Position numbers and translations under genes: made by a program | Notes under the pieces: model-generated | Told to the model about the DNA's origin: nothing | What the model saw: the letters and a program-made list of their open reading frames with translations, nothing else | The model's database searches: none | Shown here: in pieces, positions 1,686-35,713 of the stretch | Position numbering within the stretch: the stretch's first letter is position 1 | Layout of the letters: each line of letters begins with the position of its first letter | NCBI GenBank assembly: GCA_030706745.1 | Contig: JAUZNX010000016.1 | Span: 1 to 64,000, forward strand | Length of the DNA stretch: 64,000 bases | Reading direction: 5' to 3' | From: Bacteroidota bacterium | GTDB taxonomy: Bacteria > Bacteroidota > Ignavibacteria > Palsa-1295

Positions 1686-1714
1686 TTGTAACCGTAGGCA
1701 CTCTCGAGCGTTTT
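1686..1714 (+). promoter_or_regulatory. ECF-type promoter candidate upstream of sigma gene 1
   Basis: TTGTAACCGTAGG is followed by CGTTTT, giving GTAACC - 15 bases - CGTTTT, the form of an ECF sigma promoter (-35 with AAC, -10 with CGT). A near-identical -35 block (TTGTAACGGAAGG) precedes the second sigma gene of this window, suggesting autoregulation or a shared regulon. This is a motif reading only. Confidence 0.4.
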
Positions 1715-1728
1715 AAACATAGAGCATC

Positions 1729-2478
1729 ATGCGATTAATCAGGAGGAAGGGTCTCGCGGGAACGCGCGCCGATGGAATGGCTGCGCCTCGCGAAGCTTTG
1801 TCTACCGCGCCGCATGAATCAGCCACCGTTCTGGATGCCTTCGCGGATTCGCTCGCAACTCCGATCGCCGGTGCCACCATTGCGAGCACAGCCACCGAGC
1901 CGCGCTATCTCAGCGATGAGGATCTCTGGCAAGCGTTCAGGTCCGGTGAAGATGCAGCGTTCAGTATGCTCTATGCCCGGTATGGCGACAGGCTCTATGC
2001 GTACCTGAAATTCTTGCTCGCCCATGCGCCCCGGCATTTGGACGATGTATTCCAGGAAACCTGGATCACGGTATTCAAGGAGCGTGGCGCGTTTCACGCA
2101 AATACGACCAATGCATTTAGTGGCTGGCTCTTTCGTGTTGCGCATAATCTTGCGATCAGTCAGGTGCGGCGCGATCAAAAGACAATTCCGATCGACGACC
2201 TCGATTTTGACAGCGAACTGATCGAAGGCTTTGTCGTGGAGGCCGCGCAGGAAACATACGGGACGCCGAATCCTGATGAGGTCATGCACCAGGTTTCTTT
2301 GGCTGTCGAAGAACTGCCGCTCCTATTGCGAGAAGTATTCGTGCTTTCGGAGTTCGATCATCTGACGCTCGAACAAATCGGTGAGATGCTCGGCATCTCA
2401 CGCACGAATGCGAAGGTTCGGCTCTTCCGTGCCCGCCGCGAAATTCGCGAGCGACTGGCTAACGTTTTGGATTTATAA
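1729..2478 (+). CDS. ECF-type RNA polymerase sigma factor (sigma-70 family)
   Basis: A 249-residue sigma factor. After a roughly 60-residue N-terminal extension of low complexity come region 2 (LWQAFRSGEDAAFSMLYARY, then LDDVFQETWITVFK and GWLFRVAHNLAISQVRR, about residues 65-150) and region 4 (VEELPLLLREVFVLSEF, then LEQIGEMLGISRTNAKVRL, about 188-240). There is no region 3, as usual for ECF factors. It would direct RNA polymerase to a stress or envelope regulon. The start codon is uncertain because of the extension; a start nearer residue 50 is possible. The anti-sigma-like membrane protein follows 36 bases downstream, so the two are probably co-transcribed. The pair is mirrored at 33.6-35.6 kb. 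Confidence 0.88.
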   Translation: MRLIRRKGLAGTRADGMAAPREALSTAPHESATVLDAFADSLATPIAGATIASTATEPRYLSDEDLWQAFRSGEDAAFSMLYARYGDRLYAYLKFLLAHAPRHLDDVFQETWITVFKERGAFHANTTNAFSGWLFRVAHNLAISQVRRDQKTIPIDDLDFDSELIEGFVVEAAQETYGTPNPDEVMHQVSLAVEELPLLLREVFVLSEFDHLTLEQIGEMLGISRTNAKVRLFRARREIRERLANVLDL

Positions 2479-2514
2479 CGCTCAGCGGGAATCTTGCCCG
2501 CGACGGAGATAGGT

Positions 2515-3819
2515 ATGGCAATAAATGAAGAACGGATTTTGGATTTCCTCGATGGCCGGCTGAACTCCGGTCAGGAAGAGGAATTATTGCACACGCTGGC
2601 CGTCTCGCCCGAACGGCGGGGGCTGCTGCGCGCCCACATGCGGCTCCGTGAGTTGACAAGTAACCTCGCGAGCGCCGAGCGCTTGAGCGTCCCGAAACAC
2701 GTGACCAGTCAGCTTTTTCGGACGTTGCAGACGATGGGACTCTCGGCCACCGCCAGCACCGATCAGATTCTGACGAATGCGCCCCAACTCGCAAAGCTGG
2801 CACTTGCCGAAAAGACCGCTGAGACGTTCGGGACATCCGCGATTGCCGTTGGCACCGGCTGGCAGTTGAGCTTTGCCTCGATTGCCGCAGCCACGCTCCT
2901 TTCGTTCACACTTGGCGCTGGCGCCTACCATGTCTTCGCGCGAAGCCTTGGATTGACCAGCGTGCCAGAAGTCCGGACCATCGTTCAACTGGTGCCTCAG
3001 CCAGCGACACCATCGCCGGCCAATCTCCAAAGTAAGGCGACTTCTCCCATGCATTCCGACGAAGCGCCTCTCTCGCTCGATCACACGACCAACATCAGAG
3101 CCTCAGCACCGGCTGCGCCAACGGTGTCAACTCTGCCAGGTTCGTTCGAGGGCGGACCTTCGATCGCATCCGCTTCTCCACTCGATAGACCAATCCTGCC
3201 AGAGAAGTCCGATCAATTCACGAAGCTTGCCAGCCAGCATTTGATGGCTCGAGCAATCGAGACACCGCTCGAAAGCGAGAAAGGAACCATCAGCTTCCGA
3301 TATGGCACCGGTGTGATGCCGACCAACAATATCAGCTCGATGAGCTCTCTTTCGGAAGTGAAATTTCGTTGGACATTATGGAATTACGTCGTTGGCCAGG
3401 CATCACTGGGTCAACTTCAGAGCTTCGTCCACGAAGCCAAGTTGAATCCCGACCCGAGAAAGCAAGGCGAAATCACCACGGAGGAAGTGGCGAACAGCAC
3501 CTTCGTGATTGGCGCGGAAGCCGGCTTAACTTTGGACCCACTGCATTTGCCATTCGAAGCGACCGGAGGATTCCTCGTCGATGGGGCAGGCACCCCATAC
3601 TTGCGTACCGGCATCTTCGCACACTATGAGCCATTCGAGGCTCTGAGTATCATCGCCGGTATCGAGGGGGTCTGGTACACGCATTCGATTCAGAAGTCCA
3701 TCGATCAGAAGGAAATGATGTATCAGGACTTCTCTCCTCATCTAAAGCCAGGATCGGCGCAGGGCAACGAAACCGCCGGGTTCTTTGGACCATCGCTTGA
3801 ATTCGGCTGGCATTTCTGA
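2515..3819 (+). CDS. membrane anti-sigma-like protein with outer-membrane-barrel-like C-terminus (Dma-like)
   Basis: A 434-residue protein in four parts. (1) A cytoplasmic helical N-terminus (1-75) with ILDFLDGRLNSGQEEELLH, a form common in non-zinc anti-sigma domains. (2) One membrane helix at about 117-140. (3) A roughly 110-residue Pro/Ser/Thr/Ala-rich linker (150-255). (4) A beta-rich domain (257-434) with alternating hydrophobic/polar strands, Gly and aromatic residues, ending in GWHF; a terminal Phe is typical of outer-membrane barrels. It follows the sigma gene directly. The design suggests one chain crossing both membranes and holding the sigma factor, as described for dual membrane-spanning anti-sigma (Dma) proteins of Bacteroides. 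The ATG is chosen for its GGAG ribosome site. The barrel and sigma binding are inferred. Confidence 0.6.
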   Translation: MAINEERILDFLDGRLNSGQEEELLHTLAVSPERRGLLRAHMRLRELTSNLASAERLSVPKHVTSQLFRTLQTMGLSATASTDQILTNAPQLAKLALAEKTAETFGTSAIAVGTGWQLSFASIAAATLLSFTLGAGAYHVFARSLGLTSVPEVRTIVQLVPQPATPSPANLQSKATSPMHSDEAPLSLDHTTNIRASAPAAPTVSTLPGSFEGGPSIASASPLDRPILPEKSDQFTKLASQHLMARAIETPLESEKGTISFRYGTGVMPTNNISSMSSLSEVKFRWTLWNYVVGQASLGQLQSFVHEAKLNPDPRKQGEITTEEVANSTFVIGAEAGLTLDPLHLPFEATGGFLVDGAGTPYLRTGIFAHYEPFEALSIIAGIEGVWYTHSIQKSIDQKEMMYQDFSPHLKPGSAQGNETAGFFGPSLEFGWHF

Positions 3820-3925: not shown

Positions 3926-4573
3926 TTGAGAATCGATTCACGGGAACATCATGCGGCCACCCATTCTATACCCTCTTCCCCCGACTCTGACAAAAGCAGA
4001 GTAGAGCTGCCGAGCATTAAGATTCGGGTTCGCGGCCTGGGTGAAGGTGAAAATCCGGTCGATTTCTCTGTGGACGCCGCTGTTCTGGATTATGCGCCAT
4101 TCGAAGACACCGTTCGAATCCACGGATCATTAGTCAGGGCTGGCGAACAAATACACCTGAAAGCGACGGCCTCGGCAGAAGGATCGTTCGAATGTACCCG
4201 ATGCACCGAGCCATTTCGTCGCATAATCGACGCCCCAATCGCACTTGAATTCGTGCCTCCTCGACTGGAGCGGGACCCCAACGATCCTAACGTCCATGTG
4301 TATGATGCGGCAATCAATGCATATCTGGACATCACCGAAGATGTTCGCGATGCGCTGGCATTGGCCATCCCAATGAAACATCTCTGCCGGCCGGACTGCA
4401 AAGGGCTTTGCCCTGTCTGTGGAAAGGACCTCAACAAGGGTCCCTGTGGCCATTTGGAGCAGAGCGAGGAGGAAATCAAGTTTCCGGCACTCAAAAGTTT
4501 AGGTGAGCGTTTGCGTGCCGAAGAAGGGAATGCCGGGCCTTCCGAGCACGGGTTGTCCGACCGCGGACAGTAA
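3926..4573 (+). CDS. yceD: YceD/DUF177 family protein
   Basis: A 215-residue member of the YceD (DUF177) family, linked in other bacteria to 23S rRNA accumulation and regularly placed just before rpmF. The family signature is near the C-terminus: CRPDCKGLCPVCGKDLN, with paired cysteines likely to bind metal, plus an earlier CTRC pair at about residue 91. A TTG start is chosen because a very strong GGGGGAGG ribosome site sits 6 bases upstream and no ATG lies nearby. It probably opens the long operon that runs through rpmF, plsX and the fab genes. Confidence 0.85.
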   Translation: MRIDSREHHAATHSIPSSPDSDKSRVELPSIKIRVRGLGEGENPVDFSVDAAVLDYAPFEDTVRIHGSLVRAGEQIHLKATASAEGSFECTRCTEPFRRIIDAPIALEFVPPRLERDPNDPNVHVYDAAINAYLDITEDVRDALALAIPMKHLCRPDCKGLCPVCGKDLNKGPCGHLEQSEEEIKFPALKSLGERLRAEEGNAGPSEHGLSDRGQ

Positions 4574-4609
4574 CGTTTTTCGTCCCTTTTCGATTTTTAG
4601 AGCGACATC

Positions 4610-4795
4610 ATGCCAAATCCAACACATAGGAATTCACGGACCCGCCGCGATAAACGCCGGACCCATTACAAGCTTTCGAAGCCATCGTTTGGGAACTGCC
4701 CGAACTGCGGTTCGCCGAAACTACAACATACCGCGTGCGCGAGCTGCGGCTTTTACCGCGGTCGTTCGGTCTTCCAGCCGAAGGTCCAAAGCTGA
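4610..4795 (+). CDS. rpmF: 50S ribosomal protein L32
   Basis: A 61-residue basic ribosomal protein with the L32 hallmark start MPNPTHRNSRTRRDKRR and a zinc-ribbon-type CPNCG...CASCG pair (about residues 30-47). Length and order (yceD-rpmF-plsX-fabH) are those of the conserved bacterial lipid and ribosome cluster. The zinc-binding version (two CxxC) is present. Confidence 0.97.
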   Translation: MPNPTHRNSRTRRDKRRTHYKLSKPSFGNCPNCGSPKLQHTACASCGFYRGRSVFQPKVQS

Positions 4796-4808
4796 TCAAC
4801 GCCTCGGG

Positions 4809-4862
4809 AATGATGAATGATGGATGATGAAGCGACCAGTTCATCATTCGCCATTCATCATT
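4809..4862. repeat. word-repeat hairpin (GATGAAT-type) between rpmF and plsX
   Basis: Left arm 4809-4831 is made of GATGAAT/GATGGAT-like words in tandem; right arm 4840-4862 is its near reverse complement (about 19 of 23 positions), around an 8-base loop. It ends 13 bases before the plsX ATG, where no ribosome site is visible, so it could affect plsX translation or processing. It is one of five such elements in the window. Confidence 0.7.
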
Positions 4863-4875
4863 TATCATTTTGTCG

Positions 4876-5931
4876 ATGACTGCCGCGCAAGCGCTTGTCG
4901 CCACTTCAGACCAACCTCTTACGATCGCACTCGATGCGATGGGTGGCGATTTTTCGCCGGCCAATGAAGTTGGTGGTGCGCTCCAGGCCGTGCGCGAACG
5001 AAAGGGTCGGCTCAAAGTCCTTCTCGTTGGTGTCCGTGAAGAGATCGAGCTGGAATTGAAGCGTGCCAATGCGATGGATGAACCCGGCATTGAGCTCGTT
5101 GCAGCTTCTGAAGTAATCGGGATGGAGGATGAGCCGGTTGCAGCGCTGCGGCAAAAGCGTGATTCTTCCATCGTCATTGGCTTCGATCTCGTAAAACAAG
5201 GACGCGCTTCAGCGTTTGTCAGTGCCGGTAATACAGGTGCAGTCATGAGCGGCGCGACGCTGCTGTTGGGTCGGATTCCAGGCATCAGCCGCCCGACGAT
5301 TGGCTCCATGTTCCCACGACCCGATGGCGGCTTCACACTCCTCTTCGATGTTGGTGCAACAGTGGATTCCAAAGCAATCCATCTTCGCGAGTATGCCATC
5401 ATGGGGTCGATCTATTCCGAGCAGATTCTGGGAATAAAGAATCCGCGCGTGGGGCTTCTGAGTGTTGGTGAAGAGCGATCGAAAGGCAACGAACTTGTTT
5501 TCGGCACAACGGAGCTGCTCGAAAAGTCGCACGTGAATTTTGCGGGAAATGTCGAAGGTCGCGATGTGTTCAAATCAACGGTCGATGTGATTGTTTGCGA
5601 CGGATTCGTCGGCAACATCGTATTGAAGCTCGCCGAAAGTATGTTAACCGTCATGAAGACGATCATCCGTAACTATGCCTCACGCGGGATCTGGCAAAAG
5701 CTGAAGGCTGCCATTGCCGCCTCGGTGCTGCGTGAGTCGCTGAAGGACTTCGATTATCAGGAGCACGGCGGCGTGCCGTTGCTTGGTGTGCGTGGTGTGA
5801 CCATCATCGGCCATGGCCGGTCCACTCCGAAGGCGCTCAAAAACATGATATTCAAGGCAGAAGAAATGGTCGAAAAGAAGATCGTCGAGAAAATCGCCCA
5901 TGCGGTCGAGGTCGAAACCGTACCAGCATAA
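4876..5931 (+). CDS. plsX: phosphate acyltransferase PlsX
   Basis: Makes acyl-phosphate from acyl-ACP for phosphatidic acid synthesis (PlsX/PlsY route). About 351 residues, the family's usual length. The N-terminal IALDAMGGDFSP is the classic PlsX signature; SAGNTGAVMSGA (about residues 115-126) and VCDGFVGNIVLKLAES (about 236-251) are further family motifs, and the HGRSTPKALKNMI block lies near the end. Its position before fabH is the standard order. ATG is preferred to a TTG two codons earlier. No ribosome site is seen; the start lies just after a word-repeat hairpin. Confidence 0.96.
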   Translation: MTAAQALVATSDQPLTIALDAMGGDFSPANEVGGALQAVRERKGRLKVLLVGVREEIELELKRANAMDEPGIELVAASEVIGMEDEPVAALRQKRDSSIVIGFDLVKQGRASAFVSAGNTGAVMSGATLLLGRIPGISRPTIGSMFPRPDGGFTLLFDVGATVDSKAIHLREYAIMGSIYSEQILGIKNPRVGLLSVGEERSKGNELVFGTTELLEKSHVNFAGNVEGRDVFKSTVDVIVCDGFVGNIVLKLAESMLTVMKTIIRNYASRGIWQKLKAAIAASVLRESLKDFDYQEHGGVPLLGVRGVTIIGHGRSTPKALKNMIFKAEEMVEKKIVEKIAHAVEVETVPA

Positions 5932-5942
5932 TACAGAACGAA

Positions 5943-6938
5943 TTGTCAGCTTACAAACTCCACGCAGCCATTACGTCCGTCGGTCATTACGTACCACCGG
6001 ACGTTCTCGATAACGCCTTCTTCGAATCGTACCTCGATACATCCGATGAATGGATTCGCACGCGGACCGGCATTAAAGAGCGGCGCATCCTGAAACAAGG
6101 CGCGACCAGCGACATGGCCGTACTCGCCGCGAAACAGGCGCTCGAACGACGTGGCTGGACACCCGATGATGTCGAGCTGATCATCTGCTGTACCGTGACA
6201 CCGGACATGATGTTCCCATCCACGGCGTGTCTCATTCAGGAGAAGCTCGGCGCGAAGAACTGCTGGGGCTACGATCTGGTGGCTGCGTGTTCGTCATTCC
6301 TGTTCGGCGTTGAGACCGCTGCGCAATTCGTGACATCAGGACGCTACAAACGTGTGCTGCTGATCGGCGCGGACAAGATGAGTGCGATCGCAGATTATCA
6401 GGACCGCAACACCTGCGTTCTCTTCGGCGATGGCGCCGGAGCGATCACGCTCGAGCCTTCGGAAGAAGAGATTGGAATTCTTGATTCCTATTTGCGCGTG
6501 GATGGAAGTGGCGCGCCATTCCTTCACATGAAGGCTGGCGGCAGCCTCCGCCCGGCATCACACGAGACGGTCGAGAACCGTTGGCACTACGTTTATCAGG
6601 AGGGCAAGCAGGTTTTCAAGCGCGCTGTCGTGGACATGGCCGAATCCTCAGCCCGTGTGGTCGAGCGTAATGGAATGACAGGCAAGGATATCTCCTTCCT
6701 TGTCCCTCATCAGGCAAATCTTCGCATCATCGATGCCGCCCGCGAGCGCATGGGGCTCTCGCCAGAGCAGGTGATGATTAATATCCAAAAGTACGGCAAT
6801 ACGACCAGCGCGACAATCCCGATATGTCTTAGCGAGTGGTGGGCCGATGGCAAACTCAAGAAAGGTGACAATATTGTCCTTTCCAGTTTTGGCGCGGGGT
6901 ACACGTGGGGAGCAATTCTCGTCCGCTGGGCGTACTAA
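5943..6938 (+). CDS. fabH: beta-ketoacyl-ACP synthase III
   Basis: Condenses acetyl-CoA (or a branched starter) with malonyl-ACP to begin fatty acid synthesis. The 331-residue length fits. The catalytic triad is visible: Cys116 in AACSSF, His256 in VPHQANLRI and Asn286 in YGNTTSATIP; SDEWIRTRTGIKER at 34-47 is also typical. It uses a TTG start 11 bases after plsX; no closer ATG precedes the conserved N-terminus. Confidence 0.96.
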   Translation: MSAYKLHAAITSVGHYVPPDVLDNAFFESYLDTSDEWIRTRTGIKERRILKQGATSDMAVLAAKQALERRGWTPDDVELIICCTVTPDMMFPSTACLIQEKLGAKNCWGYDLVAACSSFLFGVETAAQFVTSGRYKRVLLIGADKMSAIADYQDRNTCVLFGDGAGAITLEPSEEEIGILDSYLRVDGSGAPFLHMKAGGSLRPASHETVENRWHYVYQEGKQVFKRAVVDMAESSARVVERNGMTGKDISFLVPHQANLRIIDAARERMGLSPEQVMINIQKYGNTTSATIPICLSEWWADGKLKKGDNIVLSSFGAGYTWGAILVRWAY

Positions 6939-6950
6939 CCGATTCGCACA

Positions 6951-7862
6951 ATGATTGCTCACATTTTTCCCGGACAAGGCTCGCAATATCCCGGCATGGT
7001 GAAGGAATTCGCCGAGGCCTTCCCCGCTGCACGTGCCCGACTCCAGGAAGCTGATGATCTGTTGCACATCAATCTTTCCCGAGCGATGCTCGAAGGACCC
7101 GAAGACGTTCTTCGGCAAACAGATTACACCCAACCGGCCATCTTTCTGCATTCGATCATCGCGCTCGAGTTCGATGAAGAGCGCGCGCCGGCGCAGGCAA
7201 TGGCCGGTCACTCGTTGGGTGAGTATACGGCGCTCTGTGCTGCCGGCGGACTCGAATTTCGCGATGCGCTTTCGCTGGTCCATTTGCGCGGCCAACTCAT
7301 GGCCGAAGCCGGACGCCGCAAATCTGGCACGATGGCTGCGATCATTGGAATGGATGCCAATAAGTTGACTGCAATTTGTGAAACCGTCGAAAGCGAACTG
7401 GAGACGGTCGTTCGCCCAGCGAACTTCAATTCGCCGGGCCAAATTGTCATCTCAGGGACTGGGCAAGGCGTTCAAGAAGTGATGCGCCGCGCGAAAGCAG
7501 AAGGCGTTCGAATCGCCAAAGAGCTTTCGGTTTCGGGCGCATTCCACTCGCCACTTATGCAGTATGCCGCGGATGGACTCCAAGAGGCGCTTGCTTCGAC
7601 GGACATTACATCTCCGGATGTGCCGGTCTTCAGCAATGTGAGCGCCGAGCCAGTCGAGGATGCAGAAGATATCCGGAGACTTCTCATCGAGCAATTGACA
7701 GCGCCGGTCTTGTGGGAGCAGTCCGTTAAGAATATGTACGACTTCGGCATTCGCGAGTTTGTCGAGTACGGTCCGGGCAAAGTACTGCAAGGGCTTATCA
7801 CTCGCACGCTGACAAACGTGAAAGTGACGGGTGTTGAAAAACCAAAGGCGGTGGCCGCATGA
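6951..7862 (+). CDS. fabD: malonyl-CoA:ACP transacylase
   Basis: Transfers malonyl from CoA to ACP. The 303 residues show IFPGQGSQYPGM at the N-terminus, the nucleophile Ser88 in GHSLGEYTAL, the QPAIFLHS loop, and the catalytic His in GAFHSPLM at about residue 195. It follows fabH by 12 bases, and its stop overlaps the next start (ATGA), indicating translational coupling to the DUF3109-like gene. Confidence 0.96.
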   Translation: MIAHIFPGQGSQYPGMVKEFAEAFPAARARLQEADDLLHINLSRAMLEGPEDVLRQTDYTQPAIFLHSIIALEFDEERAPAQAMAGHSLGEYTALCAAGGLEFRDALSLVHLRGQLMAEAGRRKSGTMAAIIGMDANKLTAICETVESELETVVRPANFNSPGQIVISGTGQGVQEVMRRAKAEGVRIAKELSVSGAFHSPLMQYAADGLQEALASTDITSPDVPVFSNVSAEPVEDAEDIRRLLIEQLTAPVLWEQSVKNMYDFGIREFVEYGPGKVLQGLITRTLTNVKVTGVEKPKAVAA

Positions 7863-8575
7863 GTCAGGAAGCAAATCAAAACGAACCAATGCCAGAGAGC
7901 GACGAGATTCCTGAGAGCCGGATTGCACCGATCACTGTCGGTGGCTTGCGCGTGGACGAGATCATCTTCACGCACGGCTTTGTCGATTACTGCAACATCT
8001 CGCTCTGCGGTGGCGGATGCTGTCATTCCGGCGTCTATGCCGATCTGGGCGAGCGCGATCAAATCCTCGCGCACGCGACCGAGATCGCGGCAGCGATGGA
8101 CGAGACCCAGGACACCGACACCGACACCTGGTTCGATGGCGAGATCATCGACGATCCCGATTTCCCTTCCGGTCAGGCCGAAGGAACGGACGTACACGAG
8201 CGCGATGGTGGTATTTCCGGATTTACCGAAGGCTGCGTGTTCTTGGACAAGCGGCACTTCTGCTCGATCCAGGTTGCTGCGGCCAATGCCGGACTTCACC
8301 GCTGGGCCTGGAAACCACGATACTGCATCCTCTTCCCTGTTACGGTCGTCGAAGGGACGATAACGTATGACGATTCACACTCGGAGGATTTGCATCACTG
8401 CGGGCCTGCCGGTGCAGGAAAGTATGTGCACAGCGTATATGAGTCCATGCGCGAAGAGTTGACCCATTTTCTGGGCAAGGATGAATTCGCGAAGCTGGAA
8501 ACCTATTATCAATCGAACCGCGAGCGCTTTGAAGCCGCACGCTTAAGCGATAGTCTTATTCAAATCACTGTATGA
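7859..8575 (+). CDS. cysteine-rich DUF3109-like protein
   Basis: A 238-residue soluble protein of unknown function. Cysteine clusters suggest a metal or Fe-S site: CNISLCGGGCC at about residues 44-54, then CVFLDKRHFC (about 124-133), RYCILFP (about 151-157) and HHCGP near 181. This pattern resembles the DUF3109/YkgJ-type cysteine-cluster proteins. It is embedded between fabD and fabG with ATGA overlaps on both sides, so its synthesis is tied to the fatty-acid genes. An acidic segment (about 80-110) separates the first two clusters. The family call is from memory of the cysteine spacing. Confidence 0.6.
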   Translation: MSQEANQNEPMPESDEIPESRIAPITVGGLRVDEIIFTHGFVDYCNISLCGGGCCHSGVYADLGERDQILAHATEIAAAMDETQDTDTDTWFDGEIIDDPDFPSGQAEGTDVHERDGGISGFTEGCVFLDKRHFCSIQVAAANAGLHRWAWKPRYCILFPVTVVEGTITYDDSHSEDLHHCGPAGAGKYVHSVYESMREELTHFLGKDEFAKLETYYQSNRERFEAARLSDSLIQITV

Positions 8576-9384
8576 GCGCAGAGAAACCAGCGTACATGAA
8601 GGCCTCCTGGCCCGAGGATCAGCCGGTTGGGGGACCAAAACGGGTTGCCGTCGTAACGGGTGGGGCTCGTGGTATCGGGCGGGCCATTGTCGAAGAGCTG
8701 TTTCATCAGCGGTTCACTGTCATATTTCTCGACTACGTTATCGGCGAGGATGCGATTGCGTTTGCGGAGAGTCTGAATGCGAAGGTTGTATTGCCAAAAG
8801 TTAGTCTGGTCCACTACGAGCAACTCGACGTGACAAACGGCGTAGCTGCCCAGGTTGTAATTGATAAAATCGTTGCCGAGCACGGCCAGATCGACGTTCT
8901 GGTCAATAATGCGGGTATTACCCGCGATGGGCTTCTGATGCGGATGTCCGAGGCCGACTGGGACGCCGTGCTGAATACCAATCTGAAAGGTGTTTATAAT
9001 GTGACCAAGGCGGCCATTCGGCCGATGATGTCGCAAAAACGCGGGAAGATAATTAACATTGCCAGTGTTGTGGCGCTCACGGGCAACCCCGGACAAGCGA
9101 ATTATTGCGCGTCCAAGGCGGGTGTGATCGGATTTACCAAGTCGATCGCAAAGGAAGTCGGGTCGCGCGGGATTACTGTTAATGCCGTTGCCCCAGGCTT
9201 CATCGAGACGGAAATGACCGCCAAGTTGAACGATGCGCAGCGCGAAGCAATGCTCGCGTTGGTGCCCCTGAAACGCCCCGGCAAACCCGAAGATGTGGCG
9301 CGCGTTGTGAGCTTCCTCGCTTCGCCAGCCGCCGATTATGTCACCGGACAGACGATTGTCGTCGATGGTGGCATGGCAATGTAG
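8572..9384 (+). CDS. fabG: 3-oxoacyl-ACP reductase
   Basis: NADPH-dependent reduction of 3-oxoacyl-ACP. A short-chain dehydrogenase of 270 residues: cofactor loop TGGARGIG at 29-36, NNAG at 112-115, catalytic Ser165, Tyr178 and Lys182 (YCASK), and the C-terminal SFLASPAADYVTGQ with DGGMAM. The N-terminus is about 22 residues longer than typical FabG; the ATG at its start overlaps the preceding stop, while an internal ATG at residue 9 is an alternative. Confidence 0.93.
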   Translation: MSAEKPAYMKASWPEDQPVGGPKRVAVVTGGARGIGRAIVEELFHQRFTVIFLDYVIGEDAIAFAESLNAKVVLPKVSLVHYEQLDVTNGVAAQVVIDKIVAEHGQIDVLVNNAGITRDGLLMRMSEADWDAVLNTNLKGVYNVTKAAIRPMMSQKRGKIINIASVVALTGNPGQANYCASKAGVIGFTKSIAKEVGSRGITVNAVAPGFIETEMTAKLNDAQREAMLALVPLKRPGKPEDVARVVSFLASPAADYVTGQTIVVDGGMAM

Positions 9385-32912: not shown

Positions 32913-33599
32913 TTAATTCGTTTTGCTTTGGAATTTCAGGTCCATCATTTCATTCCCGGGGCGCTCGATATGGGAGTAGATGGTCCCGATGCCGCGAGCA
33001 AACCAGGTCGTGCCGGTCGTACCGGCAGCGCCCTTGTAATCCACGACGACCACATCATCGTACGACTTGCCATTGACAGTCGCCGATACACCGTACTTGG
33101 CAACAGTTGCGGTGACGGACTCTCCTTGTGAGGTGAAGGTCCATGTCGCGCCAGAGGAGAGCGGCGCTTTGAGTTCGACCCACGAATCGGTATACTGGCC
33201 GTACATCTCAATGCCGAGACCAACCGCTTCGGTATCGGAAAGCGCATAGAACCATGGACGTGGCTGGCCAGCGGTGGCATAGGACCACAGGCAAGTCCAG
33301 ACCGGCATCGATTGATAAGTGGTGTTCTGGTCCGATCCTTTCATGTCCATGGTTAGCATATCGCTGGCGGGCAGGTATGGATCACGCGAGGCGAAATTGT
33401 AGTGATACACCATATTCGGCGCTTCGAGAAGAATGTAGTAGTTCTTCACGTTCTGCTCCGCCTTCGGCGCCTGCGGGTTCGGGTCGGCAATCTGACTGCA
33501 TCCGGAAAAAGCTCCGAGCATAGTCAGCATTCCGACGATGCCAGTCAGCACTGACATCCGGACTCGGTCACTCTGTAGTAATAATCTCTTGACACTCAT
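32913..33599 (-). CDS. lipoprotein of unknown function
   Basis: 228 residues. GGGAGC ribosome site before the ATG. The signal ends in the lipobox LGAFSGCSQ, with Cys34 as the lipidated residue. The mature part is beta-rich (ATWTFTSQGESVTATVAKYG, GKSYDDVVVVDYKG, FARGIGTIYSHIE), reminiscent of the beta-sandwich repeats of many Bacteroidota surface lipoproteins. No catalytic motif. It may be transcribed with the BatA gene, though a strong hairpin separates them. Confidence 0.75.
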   Translation of the reverse strand: MSVKRLLLQSDRVRMSVLTGIVGMLTMLGAFSGCSQIADPNPQAPKAEQNVKNYYILLEAPNMVYHYNFASRDPYLPASDMLTMDMKGSDQNTTYQSMPVWTCLWSYATAGQPRPWFYALSDTEAVGLGIEMYGQYTDSWVELKAPLSSGATWTFTSQGESVTATVAKYGVSATVNGKSYDDVVVVDYKGAAGTTGTTWFARGIGTIYSHIERPGNEMMDLKFQSKTN

Positions 33600-33651
33600 A
33601 ATATTGCTCCCACGCATAGAGACACTATTTTGTCTCTGCAGTTACACGTCA

Positions 33652-34881
33652 TTAGAACCGGTACGACAGCCCATACTCGATGCGGCTGAGCAGGGTATTG
33701 TGGATATCGGGGCCGTCATAAATGGCGGGCCCGGATTGTGACGAAAGCAACTCTTGCTTTGTCTGCCCATTTTCATGGCGTCGCGTCAGCGACCAGGTTG
33801 CGCCGGCAAGGAAATGCTCCGCGATCGGGATGCGCACTCCGGCGCTCACGTCCATGAAATTCCCTCCAGAGAACAAGCCAGCGCCCACGCTGCCATCGAT
33901 CAGGAACAGACCCCGATCGACCGACAAACGCCGCGTATAATACACTTCATATGTCGTCAACCAGGTCGGCTCCATCGATGCTGCAAACTCATTGAATCCG
34001 GTACTGGCAGTTTGATCAACCGTGAGCGAACCGAACATGCCACGTTCGATTCGGACGCCGGCCAAATCGTGCTCATCCAGCGCATACGCCGCGTGCAGCA
34101 CCCAATCCTGAAGCGGACCGGCCGCAAAGGCATTTGCCGGAGTGATGGACTGCGTTGACGTCTCGATACCGATTTCATACCGCGACATCGCATCCAATGG
34201 CGCGATCGCAAGATCGGCAATGCTATGTGCGATAATGCCCGGCGGCTGTATATGCTCGGCCTGTGTTTCGCGCGGCATTGCCGTATAAGCAATCTCCCGG
34301 TCCTTTATATCCGAACCGCTCGCGGGCATCACATCATAGGACGGGGCGACCACCGGGATACCCACGGATGAGTGCTGGCTCGAACGTACCAGATTCTTTG
34401 AAATATTCTTCACGGCAAGCGTAGCAGCTTCCGGCGTCACGGACGTCGCATTCGCATTCTGAACTGGACTGCCTGTCGCAGTTGCAACGGAAGAAGGATT
34501 CTGATAGGCACTTGTCTGAACGGCCGCCGGGACGACGATGGACTCTCGATCGAACGATTCCGCGAGCCCAATCGAGATGATGCCAAGAATAGCCGCGGCC
34601 ATTGCCCCCCGGCGAATTGACCAGAACCCAGCGGGCGTTTTCCGACGCTCCTCCCGTTGAAGGGCCGCGATTTCGGCGAAAACAGCAGCTTCGACATTCG
34701 GTGAAACGGATACGTTGCGTGCAGCCCGTGTCGCCATGCGGCGCATCGTCTCATGCTGGGTGAAGATCTCGCGAATCTCCGGACTGATGGAGACGCGGTG
34801 CATCAGCTCGGCGCTTTGGCTGTCGTTCAACCGGCCATCGAAATAAGCGATGATCGTGTCTTCGATTTGATAGACTTTCAT
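33652..34881 (-). CDS. membrane anti-sigma-like protein with outer-membrane-barrel-like C-terminus (Dma-like), second copy
   Basis: 409 residues with the same layout as the protein at 2.5 kb. The cytoplasmic N-terminus (1-80) has IIAYFDGRLNDSQSAELMH, matching its counterpart at DGRLN and the following Gln/Glu-Leu-His. One membrane helix at about 92-107 follows a basic stretch; then a roughly 120-residue Ser/Thr/Ala/Pro-rich linker; then a beta-rich domain (about 235-409) with strands such as LHAAYALDEHDLAGVRIE and VGAGLFSGGNFMDVSAG, ending EYGLSYRF with terminal Phe. GAGAAG precedes the ATG. It starts 13 bases after the sigma gene. Signal sensing at the outer membrane is inferred. Confidence 0.6.
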   Translation of the reverse strand: MKVYQIEDTIIAYFDGRLNDSQSAELMHRVSISPEIREIFTQHETMRRMATRAARNVSVSPNVEAAVFAEIAALQREERRKTPAGFWSIRRGAMAAAILGIISIGLAESFDRESIVVPAAVQTSAYQNPSSVATATGSPVQNANATSVTPEAATLAVKNISKNLVRSSQHSSVGIPVVAPSYDVMPASGSDIKDREIAYTAMPRETQAEHIQPPGIIAHSIADLAIAPLDAMSRYEIGIETSTQSITPANAFAAGPLQDWVLHAAYALDEHDLAGVRIERGMFGSLTVDQTASTGFNEFAASMEPTWLTTYEVYYTRRLSVDRGLFLIDGSVGAGLFSGGNFMDVSAGVRIPIAEHFLAGATWSLTRRHENGQTKQELLSSQSGPAIYDGPDIHNTLLSRIEYGLSYRF

Positions 34882-34894
34882 CTTCTCGTCCGTT

Positions 34895-35638
34895 CTAATT
34901 GCTAAGTCCTAAGTTCGGTAAGTCATAATCTTGGACTTCTGACACCTGTTCGTCCTGAGCTTCTGATACCAGTTCATCATTCGCCGGCTCTGCGTCCGAG
35001 CGTCTCGGACTTCTTCGCCGCACGCTGCCTCGGCTTGCCTGCGATCCATAATACGGCGCGAGCAACTGGCGGAGTTGCTTTTTGGCACGCGTGATTCGCA
35101 CCTTGACATTCATTTCCGTCGTGCCAGTCAACTCGGCGATCTGATCGTAATCGTATCCCTCGAATTCTCGCATGAGGAATGCTTCGCGGTAAATCGGCGC
35201 AATGCGCGCGAGCATCGTCTTAAGCATATCGTCAGCCTGGAGCGTCTCGGCGGGATCGCCCGGCGAGTCCAGAGTCATCGGCGCATTCTCGCCATCGGCA
35301 AATGTGCTCGTCGATACAAACTCCGGCGTGAATTTCGATTGACGAAGCGAATTCAGGCAAACCGAACGTGTAATCAGCAGCAGCCAACTCTTAAGGGCTT
35401 TGGCCTCGCGAAGTTGGGCGCGCCGCGAATACACGCGACTAAAGACTTCCTGAAACGCATCTTCGGCGAGCGTCTGCGAGTGCATATAATAGACGCAGTA
35501 GCTCATCACGCGTTGGCGATACCGGGAATAGACAAACTTGAATCCCGCAAGGGCTTCGCGCTCACCGCCTCGAATGAAGGCGTCAATAAGCGCGGATTCC
35601 TCTTCCGAATGGACGATCGGTTCGTTACGCGACGACAT
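34895..35638 (-). CDS. ECF-type RNA polymerase sigma factor (sigma-70 family), second copy
   Basis: 247 residues. Region 2 at about 15-105 (AEDAFQEVFSRVYSRRAQLR, LKSWLLLITRSVCLNSLR) and region 4 at about 140-195 (IAPIYREAFLMREFEG, YDQIAELTGTTEMNVKVRITRAKKQL). After region 4 comes a roughly 45-residue tail: a basic Arg/Ser part, then an acidic near-repeat (LVSEAQDEQVSEVQD), unusual for an ECF factor. It is coupled to the downstream anti-sigma-like gene. The upstream TTGTAACGGAAGG box resembles that of the first sigma gene. Confidence 0.88.
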   Translation of the reverse strand: MSSRNEPIVHSEEESALIDAFIRGGEREALAGFKFVYSRYRQRVMSYCVYYMHSQTLAEDAFQEVFSRVYSRRAQLREAKALKSWLLLITRSVCLNSLRQSKFTPEFVSTSTFADGENAPMTLDSPGDPAETLQADDMLKTMLARIAPIYREAFLMREFEGYDYDQIAELTGTTEMNVKVRITRAKKQLRQLLAPYYGSQASRGSVRRRSPRRSDAEPANDELVSEAQDEQVSEVQDYDLPNLGLSN

Positions 35639-35683
35639 GCGTGGTGGCTAAAGGTGGGTGCTGGCGTTGCACCCGATACTTTA

Positions 35684-35713
35684 AGGACACAGAAGAAAGT
35701 CCTTCCGTTACAA
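35684..35713 (-). promoter_or_regulatory. ECF-type promoter candidate upstream of sigma gene 2
   Basis: On the minus strand: TTGTAACGGAAGG, then about 16 bases after GTAACG, TGTCCT. Eleven of 13 bases of the -35 block match the block before sigma gene 1 (TTGTAACCGTAGG). It lies about 46 bases from the start codon. Motif reading only. Confidence 0.4.

Follow-up and report, generated by a model that had tools for sequence, protein, structure and literature searches.

The window, i.e. the whole stretch of 64,000 nucleotides that was analysed, is part of contig 16, and the genome to which it belongs comprises 3.8 Mb. Near its start, the initial annotation had placed a sigma factor gene upstream of a gene for an anti-sigma factor that seems to span both membranes, and both open reading frames (1729-2478 and 2515-3819) were present (Table 1). 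The product of the first one was matched by the Pfam models Sigma70_r2 (9e-13) and Sigma70_r4_2 (2e-13) and by the NCBIfam model sigma70-ECF (2.4e-22); it contains sigma70 regions 2 and 4 only and is, as had been assumed, an ECF sigma factor. The second one encodes a protein, P0001, that itself has no match in Pfam or NCBIfam. Since orthologues with 72, 40, 39, 39 and 34% identity retain the whole architecture of P0001, its gene is considered to be real. The closest named relative is Candidatus Kapaibacterium sp. Chersky.7_45, whose orthologue shares 71-72% identity with P0001, in line with the Kapaibacteria/Ignavibacteria-type lineage proposed before. Immediately 3' of the sigma/P0001 pair lies a housekeeping run (3926-9384, +) that starts with YceD (DUF177), followed by open reading frames that resemble plsX, fabH, fabD and fabG by sequence.

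Table 1 Features of the two sigma/anti-sigma loci in the window
Feature	Position	Strand	Basis
Candidate autoregulated ECF promoter, TGTAACC-N15-CGTTT (-35, -10)	1687..1713	+	Conserved upstream of orthologous sigma genes
ECF sigma factor, 249 aa, regions 2 and 4	1729..2478	+	Pfam, NCBIfam
P0001, predicted anti-sigma / inner-membrane helix / linker / outer-membrane barrel protein, 434 aa	2515..3819	+	Orthologues, model
Anti-sigma domain, residues 1-80, RseA/zf-HC2-like, without zinc ligands	2515..2754	+	Family Pfam matches, fold with sigma
Single inner-membrane helix, residues about 118-141	2866..2937	+	Hydropathy; model helix 120-141
Disordered periplasmic linker, residues 142-256	2938..3282	+	pLDDT <50 over 132-253
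C-terminal 8-strand outer-membrane-type barrel, residues 257-434, ends in Phe	3283..3816	+	Model, structural comparison
Putative lipoprotein, third gene of second locus	32913..33617	-	
Partner of the second sigma factor, same domain order as P0001, barrel family A, 409 aa, C-terminus SYRF	33652..34881	-	
ECF sigma factor of the second pair, like that at 1729..2478	34895..35638	-	Pfam; placed in sigma tree
Candidate promoter of second pair, TGTAAC + different -10 (TGTCCTTA)	35681..35712	-	Orthologue upstream sequences; position hand-counted

A structure model of P0001 was built on ten orthologues. In it, four N-terminal helices are followed by a hydrophobic helix (residues 120-141), a disordered stretch (142-253) and eight strands (257-433), which agrees with the domain order that had been read from the sequence, namely a helix domain, one inner-membrane helix, a linker (about 115 residues, given before as roughly 110) and a beta-rich domain. 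The pLDDT was mostly 69-91 in the barrel block, about 40-66 in the N-terminal part and low in the membrane helix. The protein ends with GWHF. Known barrel profiles (PF13568, PF13505) did not match P0001 or its orthologues, and Foldseek returned no barrel match under E 0.001; VIA-align gave clear matches on the same candidates. Residues 253-434 matched OprF-N (4rlc, Z 15.3), NspA (1p4t, Z 14.8), OmpA (9fzc, Z 14.8), PagL (Z 14.3) and OmpW (Z 14.2), whereas the soluble barrels rhizavidin and PsbO scored lower (Z 10-11). As modelled, the C-terminal domain is therefore a closed, eight-stranded barrel of the outer-membrane type with an aromatic residue at its end, and its resemblance to OprF, NspA and OmpA speaks against the soluble sandwich that would have contradicted the initial annotation. 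The barrel would presumably be inserted into the outer membrane.

The N-terminal domain was described by a profile of 22 family N-termini. Of these, 18 were matched by zf-HC2 (PF13490, best 5.7e-7) and six by RseA_N (PF03872, best 2.4e-5); P0001 taken alone had no match. The zinc motif HxxxCxxC was found in none of 108 distinct relatives and only one of them has a Cys within the first 60 residues. By its sequence, the domain family is an RseA/zf-HC2-like anti-sigma domain that lost its zinc ligands. DGRLN, which had been taken for a signature in place of a zinc domain, corresponds to the LDG motif known from the RseA/zf-HC2 superfamily and is therefore not a new signature. Since the sigma and P0001 genes are in one frame, reading the sigma stop codon as Gly yields a single artificial chain, sigma(57-249) + P0001 residues 1-80, that was modelled with a paired alignment of 32 naturally adjacent in-frame pairs (31 from other loci); the read-through is a modelling device and implies no natural read-through. 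The chain had a pTM of 0.80 and a pLDDT of 87-95 across most of the anti-sigma domain, compared to about 50-66 without sigma, a difference that is confounded by the deeper alignment used with sigma. In this model, the sigma factor could be superimposed on RsiW-bound SigW at 2.7 A (156 residues, Z 16.2) and on CnrY-bound CnrH at 3.4 A (154 residues), whereas its fit to sigma-E on RNA polymerase was as poor as 28 A. Thus, the two partners fold together in silico as one chain, with sigma in an anti-sigma-bound conformation, and the model is consistent with an anti-sigma domain held between sigma regions 2 and 4. Binding of sigma by P0001 is predicted in this way, and inhibition of sigma would be the expected outcome.

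The initial annotation had described a single pair. This pair is real but it does not stand alone: the N-terminal profile was matched in 127 of the 294 genomes sampled from the class, with up to about ten anti-sigma genes per genome, most of them with a barrel, and the window's genome contains at least five sigma/anti-sigma pairs of the P0001 kind, two of them within the window. With primary-type sigma counted in, the ECF sigma model was matched 27 times in the same genome. The association of the DGRLN N-terminus with ECF sigma genes, suspected from the one locus, was found throughout the family, with an ECF sigma open reading frame directly upstream on the same strand in 107 of the 108 distinct relatives (median gap 13 nt); for the only other one, the contig ends 36 nt away from its start. 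Therefore, the pairing is not due to chance.

The 108 relatives comprise 87 long proteins (340 aa or more) and 21 short ones that have no barrel region. A C-terminal F, W or Y is present in 65 of the 87 long relatives (F alone in 59) vs none of the 21 short ones. By sequence, the C-terminal domains fall into barrel A (n = 75), barrel B (n = 10, P0001 included) and two singletons. In the sigma tree, the partners of barrel B proteins form one clade, and those of the short form require at most three changes. Among 85 long relatives, the linker has a median length of 137 aa (range 75-410), and K+R were more abundant before than after the membrane helix in 46, the opposite being true for 15, as expected for a helix with its N-terminus inside. 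Outside the class, the anti-sigma domain was found in open reading frames of at most 348 aa only (296 genomes of the phylum), so that the fusion to a barrel was seen only inside the class. Three proteins with the anti-sigma domain and membrane helix without a barrel (219-276 aa) also occur in the window's genome (L076, L162, L163), and members of one family, f4 (L165, L018-L020, L022), have very long tails of up to 749 aa that lie outside barrel A and B. In two orthologue groups, the anti-sigma gene is followed by a gene for a putative lipoprotein of about 215-235 aa (for example 32913-33617 on the minus strand of the window, L074:3275-3922, L186, L189, L191, L198, L199 and L203). These putative lipoproteins are conserved within orthologue groups and weakly between them, and none of them had a Pfam match.

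Upstream of the sigma gene, the pattern TGTAACY-N15-CGTTT is conserved in orthologues, and at up to one mismatch 1687-1713 is its only match in the window. Six exact sites were found in the genome vs one for a reversed-pattern control, and a spacer-aware pattern with two mismatches allowed gave the same six sites vs none for the control. The sites (1687-1713, G000:C1:262146, C2:418140, C3:134214, C3:182013 and C3:314736) precede the sigma gene and five genes for putatively exported proteins, most of which begin with a signal-peptide-like stretch. Two of the five (L277, L279) passed the cut-off for a T9SS type A tail, L280 stayed below it (19 vs 23 bits), L276 had only a weak Pfam tail match (E 0.0027) and L278 none; three were counted as putatively bearing type IX secretion tails. 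Since such tails are common in the genome (at least 150), the three of five were weighed against a generous background of 7.7%, for which 3,300 genes were assumed in total; the binomial probability is then about 0.004. SprA is present. The related genomes G001 and G003 show a similar tendency, as the sites that were read there precede tail-bearing proteins (L283-L286, over the cut-off) and a tailless, orthologue-like one (L281). Taken together, a link between the sigma factor of 1729-2478 and exported proteins with T9SS tails is suggestive, the pattern having been found after the fact.

Other sigma groups have a TGTAAC-like -35 element and different -10 elements, read by eye as TGTCCTTA, TGTTTTTA, GGTCTTA and TGTCGCTC, which suggests parallel, largely separate circuits. 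That the sigma groups appear to carry conserved promoters of their own is new here. The 15 nt that separate -35 and -10 are near-identical at most sites in one genome (GGAGGCACCCTCGAG) but vary from species to species (GGAGGGGGGTCAGAG in G003), for which a second DNA-binding protein or spreading of the promoter could be the explanation. A mobile repeat was considered and rejected; the sites lie at the starts of unrelated-looking genes and differ between species.

The architecture of P0001 is reminiscent of the dual membrane-spanning anti-sigma (Dma) proteins, which are confined to Bacteroidota, where ECF21 sigma genes adjoin them, and consist of an anti-sigma domain, one membrane helix, a long disordered tether and a C-terminal barrel; Dma1/Das1 and Dma2/Das2 of Bacteroides thetaiotaomicron are the working precedent (PMC13088901). 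A further trait of Dma is control over the formation of outer-membrane vesicles. The comparison with Bacteroides Dma drawn in the initial annotation was right; the domain order and the adjacent ECF sigma gene are the same, and the phylum is the same, too, as the NCBI taxonomy treats Kapaibacteriota as synonymous with Bacteroidota. Unlike Dma, proteins of the P0001 kind have different barrel sequences, a different sigma clade, a different apparent regulon and many more copies per genome. Dma-like proteins were also found independently in one family of Bacteroidia, at loci with a sigma gene, a short F..L..P..W N-terminus, a helix, a linker, a PF13568 barrel and, as last gene, a lipoprotein gene; the lipoproteins beside Dma-like genes and those beside copies of the P0001 family share no similarity beyond the signal peptide. 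Three long PF13568-containing open reading frames from other Bacteroidota (L071-L073) turned out not to be anti-sigma proteins. Whereas the Bacteroidia proteins have only a short F..L...P...W..I segment before the helix, the N-terminus of P0001 is RseA/zf-HC2-like. Neither N-terminal nor full-length profiles revealed similarity between the two kinds, the Bacteroidia proteins being proxies for Dma1/Dma2 and the domain being short, and in a tree with SH-aLRT values only the sigma factors of the P0001 family grouped apart from the Dma-like ones with moderate support. The restriction of the domain to shorter proteins outside the class suggests an independent assembly. Architecture and presumed action appear equal to those of Dma, and, judged from the sequences, the two kinds were more probably assembled separately.

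Other known systems share single features with the pair. The N-terminal domain belongs with those of RseA/MucA, RsiW, ChrR and RslA (RseA_N, zf-HC2), P0001 has a single membrane helix like RseA, and its sigma factor is predicted in the same bound shape as SigW with RsiW. Unlike RseA/MucA and the zinc anti-sigma factors, P0001 has no zinc ligands, and a linker and an outer-membrane barrel replace the soluble periplasmic domain. The route from an outer-membrane barrel via an inner-membrane anti-sigma factor to an ECF sigma factor is that of FecR/FecA signalling, but that system uses one protein as barrel, a TonB-dependent transducer, and another as anti-sigma factor, whereas P0001 would combine both in one chain with a small, eight-stranded barrel without plug. 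As in PorXY-SigP of Porphyromonas gingivalis, an ECF sigma factor would be tied to the type IX secretion system; PorXY-SigP, however, acts on genes for components of the secretion system via a two-component system (PMC7712824), whereas the candidate regulon of the P0001 pair is cargo-like and the anti-sigma factor itself would be the sensor.

We regard it as likely that P0001 is an anti-sigma factor with an anchor in each of the two membranes, that it is paired with the neighbouring sigma factor and that its barrel acts as sensor. Prediction and comparison support the gene pairing, the folds of the domains, the presence of one membrane helix, and the promoters for autoregulation and for the regulon. 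In the resting state, residues 1-80 would sit between regions 2 and 4 of the cognate ECF sigma factor and prevent its access to RNA polymerase, one helix would cross the inner membrane, the long flexible linker would span the periplasm and the eight-stranded barrel in the outer membrane would be the sensing part. For the signal and the release step we infer that an event at the outer membrane, be it binding of a ligand, displacement of the barrel or its failed assembly, leads to release of sigma, most likely by proteolysis of the tether. Free sigma would then activate its own promoter, together with a few genes whose products are exported.

Possible, though doubtful, is a role of the barrel as built-in test substrate for the assembly of outer-membrane proteins instead of a ligand receptor. 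If assembly failed, the barrel would stay unfolded and, by exposing its C-terminal Phe, would trigger a DegS-like protease that cuts the tether and frees sigma. In E. coli, unfolded outer-membrane proteins activate DegS through their C-terminal Y-x-F, and RseA is cleaved as a consequence; the N-terminal domain of P0001 is related to RseA. The C-terminal F conserved in most barrel versions together with variable barrel loops would fit such a role, but a C-terminal F is expected in any barrel of this type, and several barrel families, up to ten paralogues per genome and different -10 elements fit separate signals better. A soluble periplasmic beta domain, as in an ordinary RseA-like anti-sigma factor, is hardly tenable: short, barrel-less relatives do exist, but the C-terminal model is a closed barrel that resembles OprF, NspA, OmpA and OmpW more than soluble barrels, and the aromatic C-terminal signature fits the outer membrane.

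The polypeptide could also be processed, so that an inner-membrane anti-sigma factor and an outer-membrane barrel exist as separate proteins and none spans the envelope at steady state. The 115-residue disordered linker would be an easy target for a protease, but the fusion is kept in 87 long relatives from many families and linkers long enough to cross the periplasm would be needless for separate proteins, which makes this reading quite improbable. As to the origin, descent of the whole protein from a true Dma ancestor appears unlikely, even though the domain order is identical, the ECF sigma gene adjoins, the phylum is the same in current taxonomy and short domains evolve so fast that a comparison of profiles may miss kinship. 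The missing profile similarity to the Bacteroidia proxies, the separate positions of the sigma factors in the tree (moderate support) and the occurrence of the N-terminal domain outside the class only in open reading frames of up to 348 aa argue for independent assembly.

For P0001 as a dual-membrane anti-sigma factor of separate origin, we lean towards a scenario in which, within the Kapaibacteria/Ignavibacteria-type class, an RseA/zf-HC2-like domain was fused to barrels and then multiplied into parallel circuits with -10 elements of their own, at least one of which would control T9SS surface proteins. If true, a one-chain anti-sigma factor across both membranes would be a recurrent solution instead of a peculiarity of Bacteroides, and the class would use it as a main signalling format. 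Parallel circuits with different -10 elements may offer ready-made, orthogonal switches from the outer membrane to genes. With a candidate promoter and regulon at hand, the output of the P0001 switch can be tested directly by a reporter. In several candidate regulon genes (L276, L280, L287), about 8 nt separate the -10 element from the ATG, a spacing like that of leaderless mRNAs.
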